A DNA stretch of 64,000 nt from a virus: positions 22,813 to 86,812 of IMG/VR virus record IMGVR_UViG_3300017788_004205; one strand, 5' to 3'. The notes under the pieces are model-generated. The model did no database searches. It saw only the letters and a list, made by a program, of their open reading frames with translations, and was not told where the DNA came from. The position numbers and the translations under genes were made by a program. Below, one piece after another: positions 7,016 through 62,062 of this stretch (positions are counted from its first letter, which is position 1; every line of letters starts with the position of its first letter).

Positions 7016-8444
7016 TTCTCCAATCTTGTATGTAATTGAGAGTATTTTTAGCTCTTGTGATGGCTACATAATGAAGATTTTGTTCTTGAATCTTTTCCCA
7101 TTCTAAAAATGCGTTTTTAAGTGGCATCATATCAGGCATGATTATATGCACATTTTCCGCTTCTAAACCTTTAGATTTATGAGCAGTCATAAGAGTTATA
7201 CCGCTTTGAGCATCTTCACAAAAAAGAGATTTTACCTTTTCTTTAACATCATCTACCGTATTGCAACCTTCAATCAAAGTCTCACAAGCAGTGATTATAT
7301 CTTTCATATAAAGTAAGTTTATTTCAGATTCTTCTTCATCGCTCTCTTTTGCTCGTTCAAATTGATTCCACATGATTTTAATAGCAGAATGTAAGTTTGA
7401 AGCTCTTGTTCCTTCCAGTCTTTTAATTATTCTTTCACCTATATCTACACCTTTGATTTGAACTTTTTTTCCTTGTGATAGTAATTGCAGAGCCAAGGAT
7501 ATAATAGGTGAGTTTGTTCTACATAAAATAAAATCTCCATCTTTTATATCTCTTGTAGAAGCGGATTGATTGACTTTTCCTTCTGGAGAATTCTCAGAAA
7601 ATTCTATGCTTGGGACTATTTTTTGAGCCCATTTTACAACTTCCTTTGAGCATCTATAACTAATACTAAGAGGTAAAAGTTTTGTATTTGGGATTTGACA
7701 CATTTTCTTGAATGATTCATCATCAGCTCCACTGAAACCATAAATAGATTGATTTCTATCTCCAACTGCTATGATTCTGCCCCCTTCCCCCTTCATTTTC
7801 ATAAGAAGTTGAATTTGGCATAATGATAAATCTTGACATTCATCAACTAAAATGAGAGAATATTCTGATACTTTAATATCTTCCAATGCTGGAATATAAA
7901 TCATATCGGTAAAATCAATAATATCTCTCCTAAAATTCATGTGTTTTATAACGGTAAATGCATCATAAATCAATTCATCAGTTGCAGGTAACATGTGTTT
8001 TAATGCTATTTGTTTTGCGGTTATAACATCTTCGCACATATTAAACCTAAACAAACTTACAAGAGATGTGATAATGTCTATGTATTTATTGAGGTCTTGT
8101 TTTTTTCTTAATTCAAGAATATCAGAAATATCTTTGATAACCCTTTTCATTTTATTTGTATCTAATTTTGCTCCTCTGTATGCCCTCTTAATCTGTTCTA
8201 AGCCAAAAGAATGCACGGTTTTAACTTCTATTCCGTTTGGAACCCTTTTAACCATTTCATCTGCTATATGCTTATTAAAAGCTATGAAAATAATGTCTTT
8301 TTGACCTTTTGATAGCAATTTCATTGATTCTATGAGCGTTGTGGTCTTCCCAGAACCTGCAACAGCTTCAATGACAGCATTTTCATTCGAGTTCTTTATA
8401 TGCTCAAATATAGCTTCTTGGTATTTACTTGGTTTGAATGACAT
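7005..8444 (-). CDS. UvrD/Dda-like superfamily 1 DNA helicase
   Basis: 479 residues from the ATG at 8444; an upstream in-frame ATG at 8486 would add 14 hydrophobic residues and is less likely. All SF1A motifs are visible: motif I AVAGSGKTTT, motif II LVDECQDLS, motif III GDRNQSIYGFSGAD, motif IV ISYRCSKEV, motif V LMTAHKSKGLEAENV and motif VI YVAITRAKN. It is shorter than bacterial UvrD (about 720 residues) and near the size of T4 Dda (439). It should move 3' to 5' or 5' to 3' on single strands and strip proteins at forks or start recombination-dependent replication. The polarity cannot be read from the sequence. Confidence 0.9.
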   Translation of the reverse strand: MSFKPSKYQEAIFEHIKNSNENAVIEAVAGSGKTTTLIESMKLLSKGQKDIIFIAFNKHIADEMVKRVPNGIEVKTVHSFGLEQIKRAYRGAKLDTNKMKRVIKDISDILELRKKQDLNKYIDIITSLVSLFRFNMCEDVITAKQIALKHMLPATDELIYDAFTVIKHMNFRRDIIDFTDMIYIPALEDIKVSEYSLILVDECQDLSLCQIQLLMKMKGEGGRIIAVGDRNQSIYGFSGADDESFKKMCQIPNTKLLPLSISYRCSKEVVKWAQKIVPSIEFSENSPEGKVNQSASTRDIKDGDFILCRTNSPIISLALQLLSQGKKVQIKGVDIGERIIKRLEGTRASNLHSAIKIMWNQFERAKESDEEESEINLLYMKDIITACETLIEGCNTVDDVKEKVKSLFCEDAQSGITLMTAHKSKGLEAENVHIIMPDMMPLKNAFLEWEKIQEQNLHYVAITRAKNTLNYIQDWRITS

Positions 8445-54782: not shown

Positions 54783-54976
54783 AATCATTTTATCTTGAAA
54801 TTCCAGAAGAAAAGTTGCTTTACCCTATTGATTTAGAGTGGGGTATAAATGATTCTATTCCAAAATCTCTCAGAATTCCTGATAGATTGAGTATAGATTT
54901 GCAAAAAAGCAAAAAAGAAGAAGTTGAGATTAAAGAAGTAAATCTTAAAAAATATAAAAAGAGGACAATCAGATAA
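54746..54976 (+). CDS. Hypothetical small protein, 76 aa
   Basis: Its start overlaps the end of the primase by 37 bases in another frame, and it ends on the first base of the next gene. It is a charged protein with an acidic N-terminus (WQDSEKEKDLESFYLEIPEE) and a basic C-terminus (EVNLKKYKKRTIR). The tight packing and its exact fit into the gap support it as a real, translationally coupled gene. No family recognised. Confidence 0.6.
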   Translation: MYWQDSEKEKDLESFYLEIPEEKLLYPIDLEWGINDSIPKSLRIPDRLSIDLQKSKKEEVEIKEVNLKKYKKRTIR

Positions 54977-55482
54977 TGGAAAATAATGAAGATTATTTTG
55001 ATGTGGAAGATATTAGTGATAATGATTCTTCTGAGCGGTCTTCTTTAAGTGAAGAAAAGAAAAATTCTTTCGCTGATGAATTTGAAGATGAGCGTAAACT
55101 TTGGAAAGATAAAGTTATTGACATGGCAAATAGAGTCAATAAACTAAATGAAGTAGCAGGTCTTCAAGTTGATTTATACTCTTCAAGGCAAATTATCATT
55201 GAAAGAATAGCTAAACTCTATAAATATTTATCAGCTTACAATGCTCTCTATAAGTCCAATAAAAAGGACTTGTTCATCAAATATACAGTAGATTCTGATA
55301 TAAAATTGGGACAAGGAGAGAAAACAATCATGGTTGAAGGTGATTTATCAGGTCTTCAAGAAAAGATAAATTTAATTGAACAACACATAGATTATTACAA
55401 GGAAACAGTTAAAAACCTTGATTCTATGCTTTATGGAGTGAGAAATAAACTACAAATTGAGCAGTTTTTGAGCGGTAAATGA
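54976..55482 (+). CDS. Candidate UvsY-like recombination mediator, 168 aa
   Basis: The first 45 residues are acidic and Ser-rich. The rest is helical: ERKLWKDKVIDMANRVNKLN, QIIIERIAKLYKYLSAYNAL, EKINLIEQHIDYYKETVKNL and LDSMLYGVRNKLQIEQFL, ending SGK. T4 UvsY (137 residues) is all-helical with a similar C-terminal step and ends AGK, and its gene neighbours uvsW, as here. Sequence identity is low by eye, so the call rests on size, helical layout and position. UvsY loads the recombinase onto gp32-coated DNA. Confidence 0.45.
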   Translation: MENNEDYFDVEDISDNDSSERSSLSEEKKNSFADEFEDERKLWKDKVIDMANRVNKLNEVAGLQVDLYSSRQIIIERIAKLYKYLSAYNALYKSNKKDLFIKYTVDSDIKLGQGEKTIMVEGDLSGLQEKINLIEQHIDYYKETVKNLDSMLYGVRNKLQIEQFLSGK

Positions 55483-55793: not shown

Positions 55794-57317
55794 ATGCTTG
55801 TTAAACTGATGGATAATAAGAACTTTCTACAAGTTGTAGAATGTTCCGATGTAGAATTCAAGCAACTTCAATTTTCTTTTAGAAAAAAGATAAAAAATTG
55901 GAGATTCCATCCACAAGTAAAACGTAAATTGTGGGATGGATATATGACATTCATGGATTCTGCTGGTAGGATGCCAGTAGGTTTATGGAATGAACTAATC
56001 GAGGTATGTAAAGAACATGGCTTTGCTGTAAATTTCGAAGATTTTGATTTATTTAGGTCGCCTTACACTAAGGAAGAATTTCTTGCTTGGGTTGAGGCGA
56101 CTTCTTTTTTTGATAAAAAGGGGAATAAAATAGAACCAAGAGATTATCAGGTAAGTTCAGTTTGGGCAATCTTAAAATATAAATACTCTATATCAGAAAT
56201 AGCCACGAGTGCTGGTAAAACTCTTATCATGTATATGGTTATGGCTTTCTTGAGGCATAAAGGATTGCTTAAACGAATGCTTATAATTGTTCCGAACATT
56301 TCTCTTATTATACAGACATATGAAGATTTTCAAGATTATTCTAATAAAGATTCAAGTTTGAAACTTCAAATGATTTCTGGAGAAACTTCAAAAATTTTGG
56401 ATGAAAATACTCAGATTGTCATAGGAACATTCCAATCTCTTGTTAAGCAAGAACCTCAATTTTTCGAAGGATTTGATGCTGTTTGTGTAGATGAAGCTCA
56501 TTTTACACAAGCAAAATCAGTTAAAGAAACACTCGCCAAATGTAGAAATGTTGTGTATAGATTTGGTCTTTCTGGAACTTTGGAAAAAGATGATTTTGCA
56601 GAACGCTTAACACTTCAGGCTTATTTAGGGCCTATGATAAATAAGGTTTCTGCTGAATTTCTTTTTAAGAATAAATATGCTACACCTGTTCAAGTTAAGG
56701 TTATAAAACTCAACTATATGGATGATGATATAAGAGAAAAGCTCTCTGAAATTAGAAAAAGAAGAACAAGCGTAGATGGGGTAAAAATCTTAGATATTGA
56801 AAGAAAACTTGTTATCGAATCTGATAAAAGACTGAACTATATTTGCGATTTGGTGAATAAGACTACAAAAAATACTCTTGTTCTTTTCCACAATGTAAAA
56901 GCAGATTATGGTAAAAAAATGCAAGAGCGACTTTTTGAGCTATCAAAAGAGAAGGATGTTTTTTACATTGACGGAGAAACAGATGTAGAAAAAAGAGAGT
57001 ATTTCAAGCAATTTCTTGAAGAAGGTGAAAACAAAGTTTTAATTGCTTCTTTTGGGACATTCTCAACAGGTATAAGCGTTAAAAACATACATAACATAGT
57101 CTTTGCTGAATCTTTTAAGTCAGATAAGATTATTCGTCAATCAATCGGTAGAGGTATGCGTTTACATGAAAGCAAAACCAAAACCAATATTATAGATATT
57201 TGTGATGACTTCTCATATAATGGAGATAAGAATTTCCTTATAAGGCATATGGAAAAAAGATTGGAAATATATGATAGCCAAGGGTTTCCGTATAAAGTAT
57301 ATGCAGTTGATTTGTGA
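55794..57317 (+). CDS. uvsW: UvsW-like superfamily 2 DNA helicase
   Basis: 507 residues, matching T4 UvsW (503). An N-terminal DNA-binding part (KKIKNWRFHPQVKRKLWDGY) is followed by motif I ATSAGKTLI near residue 137, motif II VDEAHF near residue 233, motif III GLSGTLEKDD, and motif VI IRQSIGRGMRLHES near residue 448. UvsW unwinds branched DNA and R-loops and reverses stalled forks, moving T4 from origin-dependent to recombination-dependent replication. The 3' end converges with the next gene. Confidence 0.93.
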   Translation: MLVKLMDNKNFLQVVECSDVEFKQLQFSFRKKIKNWRFHPQVKRKLWDGYMTFMDSAGRMPVGLWNELIEVCKEHGFAVNFEDFDLFRSPYTKEEFLAWVEATSFFDKKGNKIEPRDYQVSSVWAILKYKYSISEIATSAGKTLIMYMVMAFLRHKGLLKRMLIIVPNISLIIQTYEDFQDYSNKDSSLKLQMISGETSKILDENTQIVIGTFQSLVKQEPQFFEGFDAVCVDEAHFTQAKSVKETLAKCRNVVYRFGLSGTLEKDDFAERLTLQAYLGPMINKVSAEFLFKNKYATPVQVKVIKLNYMDDDIREKLSEIRKRRTSVDGVKILDIERKLVIESDKRLNYICDLVNKTTKNTLVLFHNVKADYGKKMQERLFELSKEKDVFYIDGETDVEKREYFKQFLEEGENKVLIASFGTFSTGISVKNIHNIVFAESFKSDKIIRQSIGRGMRLHESKTKTNIIDICDDFSYNGDKNFLIRHMEKRLEIYDSQGFPYKVYAVDL

Positions 57318-57318
57318 T

Positions 57319-57888
57319 TTAACCGTTTTTTGATACTTTTTCTTTGATTATATGTTTTAGAGTTTCTTTTGGAATATCATATTCCAATTCTAATTCCCAA
57401 GTCCATGTATTAGTATATTCCACCCCAATATCTTTGAGCATGATATATCGTTTATCTTCTTCGAGGGTATAGCTTAAAAATATCCCAGCTCTTGAATTTG
57501 GCATAATAATATTAATCGTTCCATCGCTTGAATCTGGCTTAAAATCAATAGTATCTAAGAGAATATTCCATCTTTTACCGCCTTCTATCAGAAGAGTTTT
57601 AAGCATAGGGAGGGCAATTTCCAAGATTTCAGGATTTGGGAGGTTTTCTATAAAAAATGAATTTTCAGGATTATCGTAAAACGAAATCCTTTTTGTATAG
57701 GAAATTTGCTCAATATCTCTAACTAATTTCATCAAATCTTTCAAAAAAGGCATAAAATTATTTCCGAAAAATTCTTTTCTTATTTTAGAAGAAAATTGAT
57801 GTAGGATATATACTTTGTATTCTAAATCATGATTCTCAGAAAAAACTATTTTTTCCCAGAACTCACTTAAATTTAAGGTAAAAGCCAT
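57319..57888 (-). CDS. Hypothetical protein, 189 aa
   Basis: Not recognised. The first half is helical (MAFTLNLSEFWEKIVFSENH, FMPFLKDLMKLVRDIEQISY), the second beta-rich (GTINIIMPNSRAGIFLSYTL; YTNTWTWELELEYD). Its start is one base from the start of the divergent ligase gene, so its leader mRNA lies inside that gene; GAAAGG in that leader could bind ribosomes. Confidence 0.65.
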   Translation of the reverse strand: MAFTLNLSEFWEKIVFSENHDLEYKVYILHQFSSKIRKEFFGNNFMPFLKDLMKLVRDIEQISYTKRISFYDNPENSFFIENLPNPEILEIALPMLKTLLIEGGKRWNILLDTIDFKPDSSDGTINIIMPNSRAGIFLSYTLEEDKRYIMLKDIGVEYTNTWTWELELEYDIPKETLKHIIKEKVSKNG

Positions 57889-57889
57889 A

Positions 57890-59704
57890 ATGATAACCTT
57901 TCAAGAATTAATAAATAGTCGTGGCGATGATTTTATAAATCGTCTTTTTACAATGCCAGTCACAGTCTATGAAAAACTGGATGCTTCTCAATTTAGTTTT
58001 GAGAAAGATGAAGATGGAGTTTTTAGTTTTTACAAACAAGGTCAAAACACACCTATATCAAAAATTGATATTACTCTTTCTCAATATTACAATGGAGCTA
58101 TAAAGTATATCCAAAATTTACCGCTCGATAAGATTAAACTTATTCCTGCTAATTGGAGATTTTGTTGTGAATACTTTATTGATAAATCTCCTATCTATAT
58201 ATCCTATGATAAAATGCCGAAAAATGGATTAGTGCTTATTAACATCATAGACAATAGCACAAAAGAAAAAAAGGTGTTAGATAATAAGGTTTTCTTGAGC
58301 GAATGGTCTGAGTTTTTAGATATTGAATATCCTCCTCTTATTTTCCAAGGTATGCTTGGTGAAGACCAGAAGACAAAAATTTTAGAATTTATCAGAACTC
58401 CAAAAACACAGTTAAAGGAAAAATTTGAGACAAACTCATTTATTAGACATCTTCTTTCTATCTTAGACCCAGAAAGAAAATCTTCATTTCTGAGAGATTC
58501 TGATAGAGGTTTGATTGAAGGTGTTATATTTCGTTTTGAAAATGATGATGAATCATATACAGCTAAAATTATAGACCCTATTTTTTACACAAGAAAAATA
58601 GAAAACCCTGAACATAAATCATCAAAACCTTCTGATGTTTATTGGTTAACCTTAATTGATGTAATTGAATATCTCCAAGGAGTTAAGATTAAAAATCTTT
58701 TACCTGAGGGAGAAACCCCTGAAGAAAAATATTTAGATATTATCTGTAAAATATTCAATCCATTTATTCAAAAATATGGTGGTAAATTCAAAGGTGTTGA
58801 TTTTGAACTTCCAAGTTTTATGCAAAAAGAAGCTTTCAGAGTTGGATTAGAGTATATTCCAAATAAAGAAACATCTCGCCTTATTTCAGAAGATGAAAGC
58901 TGGCAAAATGTTTTCAAAGTATTTTTAGCCGCATTTAGAAAAAAGAAAAAAGGAACTAATAATCTTTTCACGGATTATGTATTAAATAGATTCAACCAAA
59001 TTGTAGATGAAATTGCATCAGAGTGCAATACAGACACGGATTTTGAAGATGACGGCGAAACTGGTTTGATGACATTTGATGAAATGAAAAGATATGGTAA
59101 AATAACAGATGTTGCAGAATCAGAAGAAATACCTCAGAAGGCCACTCAAAGAGAACTCAGTCCGATTGAGAAACAAATGATTCTTTTCAAAGAAGAAGGG
59201 CATTCATACAATAGAGAAACGATTTCTGTATGTGCAATTATTGATAGTTTTGAATTCTTTACAAATGAGCATTTAGAAATGCTACAAGAATTAACTTCAA
59301 ATGGTAAAACAAAGTGTATTTTAGTGAACATTAGAACCAACTATAATCAAACACAAGAAGATGTTCAAATGAGAATGCTTGATAATATTGAAAGAGAATA
59401 TAGAACTCTTATTGAGAATGTTATAAATGTTAGAATTCCTGATATATCTGAAATTCTTTCTGTTTTACTTTACAAAGGATATGAGCCAAATCAAATTATT
59501 GTTCAAAATAGTTATAGAACATTTTTTGATAAAATGATTGAATCATCAGATTTACATGGTGTTTCATTTGAAGTGAAAACTTTGAAAAAAGACCCAGATT
59601 ATGTAAAACTCTATAAATATGTAATGCAGAATTCTTGGGCTGATTTCAGAAAGCATGTCCCAAATCCAGTATTAAACTATTTTGAGGCATTCAAAAGCAA
59701 ATAA
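57890..59704 (+). CDS. RNA/DNA ligase-like nucleotidyltransferase fused to a cytidylyltransferase-like domain
   Basis: 604 residues. The N-terminal part has covalent nucleotidyltransferase motifs: motif I TVYEKLDASQF with the nucleotidyl lysine K29, motif III-like RFCCEYF, motif IV GLIEGVIFRF near residue 210 and motif V AKIIDP near residue 224. This is the RNA ligase pattern. Residues about 440-600 look like an HxGH-type adenylyl- or cytidylyltransferase (NMNAT-like) domain: CAIIDSFEFFTNEHLEMLQE, KCILVNIRTN; the HxGH position reads NEHL, so activity is uncertain. A fusion like this could join an RNA or nucleotide substrate and recharge it. It may pair with the HAD_SAK gene at 46362 in RNA repair. 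Confidence 0.7.
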   Translation: MITFQELINSRGDDFINRLFTMPVTVYEKLDASQFSFEKDEDGVFSFYKQGQNTPISKIDITLSQYYNGAIKYIQNLPLDKIKLIPANWRFCCEYFIDKSPIYISYDKMPKNGLVLINIIDNSTKEKKVLDNKVFLSEWSEFLDIEYPPLIFQGMLGEDQKTKILEFIRTPKTQLKEKFETNSFIRHLLSILDPERKSSFLRDSDRGLIEGVIFRFENDDESYTAKIIDPIFYTRKIENPEHKSSKPSDVYWLTLIDVIEYLQGVKIKNLLPEGETPEEKYLDIICKIFNPFIQKYGGKFKGVDFELPSFMQKEAFRVGLEYIPNKETSRLISEDESWQNVFKVFLAAFRKKKKGTNNLFTDYVLNRFNQIVDEIASECNTDTDFEDDGETGLMTFDEMKRYGKITDVAESEEIPQKATQRELSPIEKQMILFKEEGHSYNRETISVCAIIDSFEFFTNEHLEMLQELTSNGKTKCILVNIRTNYNQTQEDVQMRMLDNIEREYRTLIENVINVRIPDISEILSVLLYKGYEPNQIIVQNSYRTFFDKMIESSDLHGVSFEVKTLKKDPDYVKLYKYVMQNSWADFRKHVPNPVLNYFEAFKSK

Positions 59705-59721
59705 AAACATAACCAATAGAA

Positions 59722-60555
59722 ATGGGTAAAATTAAAAACTTTTCGGAATATCATAATATTGAAGAATCTCAAATTCTACTTGAAAAAACATTCAATATAG
59801 AGTCTGATGTTGATTTGATTTATGAAAAGGGTGGATTTTCTGAATTCTTAAAAGCATTTACTGCTGGCGAAAAGCCATATGAAGATGAATTAAATTCTAT
59901 CCAGAAGATTAAACATATAGTTTTTGATTTAATACCATCCTCCGAATTACAAACAGAAGATTGTATTAATGCACATAGACAAAATCCTATTGATATTTAC
60001 ACTGGGATAACTATAATGGGAAGTCACTATTCTCCTACTAATAAAACTATATTCATCTCATTGAACTCAAGTGCTTTAGATGTTAATTATTCTGGTGATA
60101 TTCATTACATAAGTTCTTCTCAAAAAGAAACAATCTATAATGAAATTACAGAGCAAAGAATTAAAATAGCAATACATCATGAACTATCACATTGGATAAG
60201 TGACTCGCTTTACAATAAACACATTGGGAGAATTATAAATAGAGGGCTTGAATTACAAAATAATGACATAATTAAATTAAAGCAAAAAGATGTTAATATG
60301 ACATATTTTGAAATTGATGCTCAAGTACACTCTATCAAAGAATTAAAAAGAAATTATGATGAAAGAGAATGGAATGAACTATCTTTAAGAGATATAATGA
60401 TTAAATACCCATCTCTTTCTGCTGTTTATAAAGAATTAAAATCAAAGCATGGTTTAGATGTTGCTTTACTATGGCAAAAGAATTTAACAAAAAGACTATA
60501 CAGAGAAGGTCTATTGGGTAACAATATGAAACAATTTGTAAGAGATTTTGTTTAA
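59722..60555 (+). CDS. Zincin-type metalloprotease with head-targeting leader
   Basis: 277 residues. The leader MGKIKNFSEYHNIEES ends IEE. IAIHHELSHWISD near residue 152 is a HExxH zinc site (HELSH). TYFEIDAQVHSIKEL about 50 residues on may supply the third ligand, a Glu or His. An Asp/Tyr-rich middle (INAHRQNPIDIYTGI) is part of the substrate side. The family beyond zincin is not identified. It differs from the metalloproteases at 48615 and 63452 outside the zinc motif. Confidence 0.72.
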   Translation: MGKIKNFSEYHNIEESQILLEKTFNIESDVDLIYEKGGFSEFLKAFTAGEKPYEDELNSIQKIKHIVFDLIPSSELQTEDCINAHRQNPIDIYTGITIMGSHYSPTNKTIFISLNSSALDVNYSGDIHYISSSQKETIYNEITEQRIKIAIHHELSHWISDSLYNKHIGRIINRGLELQNNDIIKLKQKDVNMTYFEIDAQVHSIKELKRNYDEREWNELSLRDIMIKYPSLSAVYKELKSKHGLDVALLWQKNLTKRLYREGLLGNNMKQFVRDFV

Positions 60556-60787: not shown

Positions 60788-61408
60788 ATGAAATACATAA
60801 AAAGATTAGAATTATTTAACAATCATTCATGTGTGAATGAGACTAATAATACACTTGACAAATATAATTGGCCTCCTATTCCAACTGATATCCACTCTTT
60901 GTCATTAGAAGAGATGTCAAAAATGTTTGGTTATATTCAGTGGAAAAAAGGAAGTGGGGATAAAATCATTGTAACCAATAATTTCATTAAAGAAAACATA
61001 ATGGATATAGAATTACCTCAACTTGCAAAAATAAAAAATCCACCAAGAACATTTAGAATAAAATGCCATAAACTTGCGGTTGTTCCTATTTTAAGATTGT
61101 GGGAAGAATGGGAAAAGGCAGGTTTACTAAATAGAATTGAGAGGTGGCATGGTTGTCATAATGCAAGAGTCCAAAGAAATTCTAAAACTACCCTAAGTAA
61201 TCATGCTTGGGGGACGGCTTTTGATATAAATAGAGAAACAAATGATTTAGACCGAATGCCTCCAGCTGTGGGTGAAAGAGGCTCGGTTAGAGAATTAGTT
61301 CCTATAGCAAATAAATTAGGATTTTACTGGGGTGGACATTTTTCTAAAAGAAAAGATGGTATGCATTTTGAACTATCTACACTTGGAGATAGACAAATTA
61401 TTATGTGA
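60788..61408 (+). CDS. M15_4-type peptidoglycan peptidase with leader
   Basis: 206 residues. The leader MKYIKRLELFNNHSCVNETN has VNE. The catalytic domain is a paralogue of the one at 26116: NHAWGTAFDINRET carries the first His and Asp, RELVPIANKLGFYWGGHF is shared almost exactly, and GMHFEL has the last His and the Glu. It lacks the PG-binding domain of the other copy. It is a candidate for a head-packaged wall hydrolase or for the lysis endolysin; the leader favours the first. Confidence 0.85.
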   Translation: MKYIKRLELFNNHSCVNETNNTLDKYNWPPIPTDIHSLSLEEMSKMFGYIQWKKGSGDKIIVTNNFIKENIMDIELPQLAKIKNPPRTFRIKCHKLAVVPILRLWEEWEKAGLLNRIERWHGCHNARVQRNSKTTLSNHAWGTAFDINRETNDLDRMPPAVGERGSVRELVPIANKLGFYWGGHFSKRKDGMHFELSTLGDRQIIM

Positions 61409-61432: not shown

Positions 61433-62062
61433 ATGGAACATAAACACCTTTCTAATTTTTTAAAAGAAGATGAGCGTGATTTAATTATTGAATATGTGAA
61501 TTCTATAAATCACAAAAGCAAAGCATATAATAAACATTTGAAGCATCTTGTTAGAAAGTTACAAGGCAGTGCTCATATGTATGATATTTCAAAAAATAAA
61601 ATAACAAAAGAAATAACAACATATCAATCGGGTGGAAATGATGTGATGAAAGAAGAGTTGTCTGAAATCTTCTATACAATACAAGAAAGAATAACAAAAA
61701 CTATTGGAATACTCAATCAAAACTCCTTCTTACAAATTGTAGATATGAATAAAGGAGGTGTAGTCGGTGCTCATTATGATGCATCTCTTGATGGTTATGT
61801 GAACTATAAATGTAATATAAGTCTTATGGCTGAAGATTATACATTTGTTATAGACAATAAAGAACTTCTAATAAAAGAGGGGGATTTATATTCCTTTGAA
61901 GCATCTTTATACAAGCATTGGACTTTGAAACCTTTTACATCAAGAAGACTTTTACTCAGTTATGGATTCATACTCCCATATAAAGAATTAGAAAGAAATG
62001 AAGATGACCCAAGAGTTAGATTAAGCAAAAGAATAAAAAGAATGTTTCAGCGTTCTAAATAA
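61433..62062 (+). CDS. 2-oxoglutarate/Fe(II) oxygenase-like protein
   Basis: 209 residues. The jelly-roll metal triad is visible: HYDASLDGY gives HxD near residue 114, and YKHWTLKPFTSRRLLLSYG gives the distal His near 162 and the 2-oxoglutarate-binding Arg. The layout (GAHYD, ISLMAEDYTFVID, EGDLYSFEAS) is that of small prolyl-hydroxylase-like phage proteins. It could hydroxylate a protein or nucleic acid base; given the collagen-like fibre a prolyl hydroxylase is thinkable, but the fibre has few prolines. The N-terminus has NFLKE, possibly chance. Confidence 0.75.
   Translation: MEHKHLSNFLKEDERDLIIEYVNSINHKSKAYNKHLKHLVRKLQGSAHMYDISKNKITKEITTYQSGGNDVMKEELSEIFYTIQERITKTIGILNQNSFLQIVDMNKGGVVGAHYDASLDGYVNYKCNISLMAEDYTFVIDNKELLIKEGDLYSFEASLYKHWTLKPFTSRRLLLSYGFILPYKELERNEDDPRVRLSKRIKRMFQRSK

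Follow-up and report, generated by a model that had tools for sequence, protein, structure and literature searches.

A gene in the 64,000-nucleotide stretch of viral DNA analysed here (the window) encodes what is probably an RNA-ligase-like enzyme joined to a second, nucleotidylyltransferase-type domain that is non-catalytic but functional. The first-pass annotation had called this fusion unusual, and as a claim of singularity that fails, for the same two domain types are fused or encoded side by side in several phage groups: cyanophages, phages of Stenotrophomonas, Xanthomonas, Vibrio and Campylobacter, and another huge phage. The pairing of a ligase with a transferase of the HIGH superfamily is apparently a recurring phage enzyme module that has gone undescribed; no ligase-HIGH fusion is described in the available parts of two reviews of phage NAD and RNA-repair systems (PMC9503650, PMC7824862). 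To the reading of the protein as an Rnl2-type nucleic-acid end-joining enzyme with a degenerate accessory HIGH domain, derived from this module, we assign a probability of about 55%. The window contig is an 86.8-kb fragment and the survey of partner enzymes is hence partial.

Organization of the fusion gene

A homologue 69% identical to the fusion protein occurs on two other IMG/VR contigs (L001 and L002). The features of the gene are as follows.

57890..59704, plus strand: ligase-nucleotidylyltransferase-like fusion gene; 604 aa, single open frame, ATG start
57890..58594, plus strand: ligase core, aa 1-235; PF09414, Foldseek match to T4 Rnl2, motifs kept in L001
57971..57988, plus strand: motif I, EKLDAS, aa 28-33, with the presumed nucleotide-accepting Lys29; alignments
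58595..59029, plus strand: helical domain after the ligase core, aa 236-380; AlphaFold2 helices, conserved in huge-phage relatives
59030..59215, plus strand: weakly conserved linker, aa 381-442; pLDDT <50 over 382-441, 45% identity to L001
59216..59701, plus strand: degenerate HIGH-superfamily nucleotidylyltransferase domain, aa 443-604; profile, fold and motif comparison
59249..59272, plus strand: degenerate HxGH region, FEFFTNEH, aa 454-461; aligned with FQPFTLGH of the huge phage LR756500

An AlphaFold2 model built from an alignment of 58 sequences has a mean pLDDT of 77 and a pTM of 0.43, at which the mutual placement of the two domains is not trusted, as is expected of two domains joined by a floppy linker. 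Whole-chain superpositions on PDB structures are poor (Foldseek TM <=0.25 normalised by query), in part because each match spans a single domain.

The ligase domain resembles T4 Rnl2

Pfam matches residues 23-226 to RNA_ligase (PF09414) with E 1.2e-7 and 32.4 bits against a cut-off of 27. In motif I (K29-L-D-A-S) the Lys and Asp are present and Ala stands where KxDG has Gly; candidate motifs III (CCEYF, E94), IV (IEGV, E210) and V (TAKI, K226) were assigned by sequence pattern, and all four of Lys29, Glu94, Glu210 and Lys226 are identical in L001/L002. The Pfam match, the motif order and this conservation agree with the first-pass reading of ligase motifs I, III, IV and V with KLDAS. When the predicted model was searched against the PDB with Foldseek, full-length T4 Rnl2 was the top fold match of the N-terminal part (E 2.3e-7), with 2hvr and 2hvq as the leading entries (E between about 2e-7 and 7e-7), followed by a fungal tRNA ligase and an editosome ligase. 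As modelled, the N-terminal domain is an Rnl2-type ligase fold. The dN/dS of the ligase core against L001 is 0.12, a rough value given a dS >1.1. Sequence searches of PDB sequences with the fusion protein and with profiles A4 and A5 returned no ligase, and Pfam did not report RNA_ligase in L001 at E <=1; by thin-alignment hhalign, profile A4 was linked to huge-phage RNA ligases at E 1.5e-5.

With T4 Rnl2 (gp24.1) and the PF09414 family the protein shares the fold, the motif order I-III-IV-V, a helical domain behind the core and the Pfam match, and the neighbourhood of its gene also has uvsW and uvsY. It differs in having KLDA instead of KxDG, a larger helical part and the added nucleotidylyltransferase-like domain. 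T4 Rnl2 has a second motif-V lysine, which is not apparent in the fusion protein.

The surrounding genes are as follows.

54976..55482, plus strand: UvsY-like recombination mediator, weak match (phrog_231, E 0.0013)
55794..57317, plus strand: UvsW-like helicase, upstream of the fusion gene (PF21241 UvsW_N above cut-off; PHROG helicases)
57319-57888, minus strand: gene for 189 aa, oriented away from the fusion gene; no known family, conserved in L001 (52%)
59722-60555: protein of 277 aa whose HHELSHW may be a zinc metalloprotease motif; unmatched in Pfam
60788-61408: VanY-type M15 peptidase (PF13539), likely endolysin, starting MKYIKRLELFNN
61433-62062: protein with a pattern suggestive of a 2OG-Fe(II) oxygenase; sequence pattern without database support

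The order UvsY-UvsW-ligase is similar to that in T4, whose rnlB is found close to uvsW and uvsY, and a UvsW-like gene is also located upstream in L001 and L012. The start codons of the fusion gene and the divergent 189-aa gene are one base apart. Matches to NIBRIN_BRCT, thymidine kinase and obelin fell below cut-off and were rejected.

The C-terminal domain is a degenerate nucleotidylyltransferase

That the C-terminal 160 residues look like a nucleotidylyltransferase, as first proposed, is confirmed by profile, model and fold. Eight other phage nucleotidylyltransferases, the fusion protein and L001 being left out, yielded an HMM that matches the C-terminus at E 3.4e-6 (best of 1000 shuffles, 0.06), and hhalign gives P 3.8e-6; Pfam has no match for this region itself. 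Residues 445-604 are predicted in blocks mostly near 90 pLDDT. A different fold had been named beforehand as the refuting outcome; structure prediction and Foldseek against the PDB gave instead PPAT (TM about 0.6) and NadD (BaNadD, TM 0.64; both normalised by target).

The degeneracy of the HxGH site is likewise real: DSFEFFTNEH stands where relatives have GRFxPxTxGH, with TNEH at the site that reads TLGH, TIGH or TKDGH elsewhere. Alignment with relatives shows that the GSDR and ISAS-like (ISSTxxR-type) motifs are absent as well. The domain resembles NadD/NadM/NadR and CoaD (PPAT; PF01467) in its predicted Rossmann-like fold and through relatives whose homologous domains bear the GRFxPxTxGH, GSDR and ISAS motifs, but it differs from these enzymes in lacking every signature motif; NMNAT equivalog profiles do not match the fusion protein, and even its intact relatives score far under every equivalog cut-off. 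The dN/dS of the domain against L001 is about 0.18 (again rough, dS >1.1); by this comparison it is under purifying selection, and it is probably non-catalytic yet functional.

Huge-phage relatives have decayed in different ways

The LR756500 homologue is 30% identical to the fusion protein over its full length. Its transferase motifs are intact (GRFQPFTLGH and ISASVVR, with a PF01467 match at 1.8e-7) and its motif I reads ENLDGS, with N at the Lys position; judged by these motifs, its decay is the reverse of that in the window fusion, the ligase Lys being lost and the transferase retained. Among predicted viral proteins, Foldseek further matched a protein of 623 aa from an uncultured phage, named cytidyltransferase-like, to the fusion protein from end to end (27% identity, E 1.5e-44). 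The LR756500 fusion gene is immediately preceded by a second ligase-like gene with EKLDGY (L004 4683-5948), whose product has an N-terminal MKFLKSYEEFLNE resembling a capsid-targeting leader; similar leaders occur on the L004 neighbours at 7952 and 8649.

An unfused ligase-like family of about 447 aa is found on dozens of huge-phage contigs in IMG/VR (L035-L114), with EDIQGS or similar at motif I, so that D, E or N replaces the Lys almost throughout, and with no transferase domain within 4 kb of its genes. They are candidates for pseudo-ligases of a kind characteristic of huge phages. In the tree, the three fused proteins of huge phages group together (99/95) next to the unfused family, on long branches and with an unsettled bootstrap.

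Fusions and adjacent gene pairs in other phages

Six Vibrio phage records and 15 Campylobacter phage records contain fusions of 484-503 aa, which carry KxDG, an E-F-L-M Glu motif, EG, LLK, GSDR and ISA; the HxGH site reads KDGH in Vibrio and KAH in Campylobacter. Profile comparison aligns them with the huge-phage fusions across both domains (E 8e-6). These hypothetical proteins, as in Vibrio phages Va1 and SRILMA and Campylobacter phages CP220 and CP21, have the domain order of the window fusion and retain the motif sets of both domains (nearly so in Campylobacter, whose HxGH reads AH), but differ from it in a shorter helical part and intact GSDR and ISA motifs. A scan of IMG/VR found no relatives of the Vibrio fusion, and a GTDB scan with profile A1 found no bacterial relatives. 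Every Vibrio or Campylobacter phage with the fusion, and Xanthomonas phage X1, also has a protein that starts MGGN and bears a G-D-(I/V)-D-I motif (L030 10-1164, L014 1441-2361, L015 1128-2138), with a weak match in Stenotrophomonas phage Moby and no such gene on the window contig; by sequence, these are possible Pol-beta-type nucleotidyltransferases, and they play no part in the functional argument below.

In Moby, X1 and the cyanophage S-PRM1 the domains are encoded separately, a KxDG-bearing gene running 4-8 bases into the transferase gene that follows it. Cyanophages have a gene of the family DUF6267 (PF19782), ligase-like with only a weak fold match to known ligases, immediately ahead of a HIGH transferase annotated as cytidyltransferase. 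The DUF6267 prediction has a pTM of 0.82 and most of the closest folds in the PDB are those of nucleic-acid ligases, at E 0.03 or worse, so that from the model it is likely a ligase; none of the open-access papers searched names the family. The profile phrog_455 spans both genes. In a phage collection, a joined DUF6267-transferase query matched 560 records, of which 289 align with at least 80% of the query at a single place, and in IMG/VR a transferase motif lies just downstream in all 38 main-group DUF6267 loci with enough downstream sequence and in none of a distant KYDG group (n=12); these counts represent related phages rather than independent events. Thin-alignment hhalign linked Moby with X1 (E 3e-5 over 45 columns) and otherwise left DUF6267, Moby, X1, T4 Rnl2 and the ligase domain of the window unlinked, a result that is uninformative as known homologues were missed too.

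The pairing is frequent in phages but not universal: no ligase-like gene was recognised next to the transferase gene of CBB, GAP32, fENko-Kae01 or 30-3. The Milchi cytidyltransferase was set aside as a module member, being located beside NadV and looking like a true salvage NMNAT. A small ParB-like protein is encoded near the transferase at L014 4727-5128, and one profile, phrog_3041, joins a transferase to this domain.

Proposed function and alternative explanations

From the domains, motifs and folds we infer catalysis, an RNA substrate and an accessory role as follows. Lys29 would accept AMP from ATP and pass it to a 5'-phosphate, which would then be sealed to a 3'-OH, the substrate most likely being RNA cut during infection. 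The Rnl2 fold and the uvsW/uvsY neighbourhood lead us to favour RNA repair as the likeliest role. The C-terminal domain would derive from a HIGH-type nucleotidylyltransferase and, its catalytic motifs gone, be retained as a non-catalytic accessory, perhaps binding a nucleotide, an RNA end or a partner. The whole protein would descend from the ligase and HIGH-transferase module, which is common among phages of the T4 superfamily and usually has an intact second domain.

Ligase catalysis in the window branch could also be drifting away, as the unfused sister family is almost throughout without the motif I Lys. A protein in which neither domain is catalytic, serving a structural or regulatory nucleotide-binding role, would agree with the D at the Lys position in that family, with the N in LR756500 and with the loss of the C-terminal motifs from the window fusion; yet the window fusion and L001 retain all four ligase residues under a low dN/dS, and we think such a protein distinctly unlikely. 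The enzyme might alternatively be carried in the virion, ligase and transferase entering the cell with the DNA and, within minutes of the onset of infection, acting on RNA or nucleotides of the host. NMNAT-like homologues were found by mass spectrometry in virions of the cyanophages S-SCSM1, S-CBWM1 and S-SZBM1, where NAD synthesis was suggested for the transferase, with co-purification as a caveat (PMC9602691, PMC10665884). Neighbours of the S-SCSM1 transferase gene are also annotated as virion proteins, and the fusion in Campylobacter phage CP220 adjoins a virion structural protein, with the portal gene near. The proteomics nevertheless comes from cyanophages, the authors themselves allowing for co-purification, and concerns transferase homologues and no ligase-like partner, and a capsid-targeting leader is not obvious in the window fusion; delivery of this kind is a minority view that we still take seriously.

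The dinucleotides consumed by NAD-dependent ligases are the products of HIGH enzymes, and ligase and HIGH transferase are paired again and again, which would suit sealing that is tied to NAD or adenylate metabolism, as in a ligase fed with NAD and a fused NMNAT that recycles the resulting NMN. Of the link proposed at first between RNA sealing and such metabolism, the folds stand and the NAD connection is weak, the catalytic motifs (HxGH, GSDR, ISAS) being lost from the window domain and the equivalog scores being far too low. The model furthermore shows no NAD-binding Ia domain, motif I being preceded by only 27 residues, and Moby, X1 and LR756500 each carry NadV, further HIGH-family genes elsewhere and another RNA ligase (weakly in Moby), so that the pair is not a NAD-salvage set; we regard NAD coupling as very improbable. 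Somewhat less doubtful, though still a long shot, is a catalytic relay in T4-superfamily phages, in which the transferase would make an A-pp-X or N-pp-X donor and the ligase would seal or cap nucleic-acid ends, possibly after delivery in the virion, the window branch having dropped the transferase step and LR756500 the ligase step.

The window fusion thus represents one branch of a recurring phage module and not a one-off oddity. Published work has taken the transferase for an enzyme of NAD synthesis; its pairing with a ligase suggests a nucleic-acid end reaction instead, which the small and largely intact Vibrio and Campylobacter fusions make directly testable.
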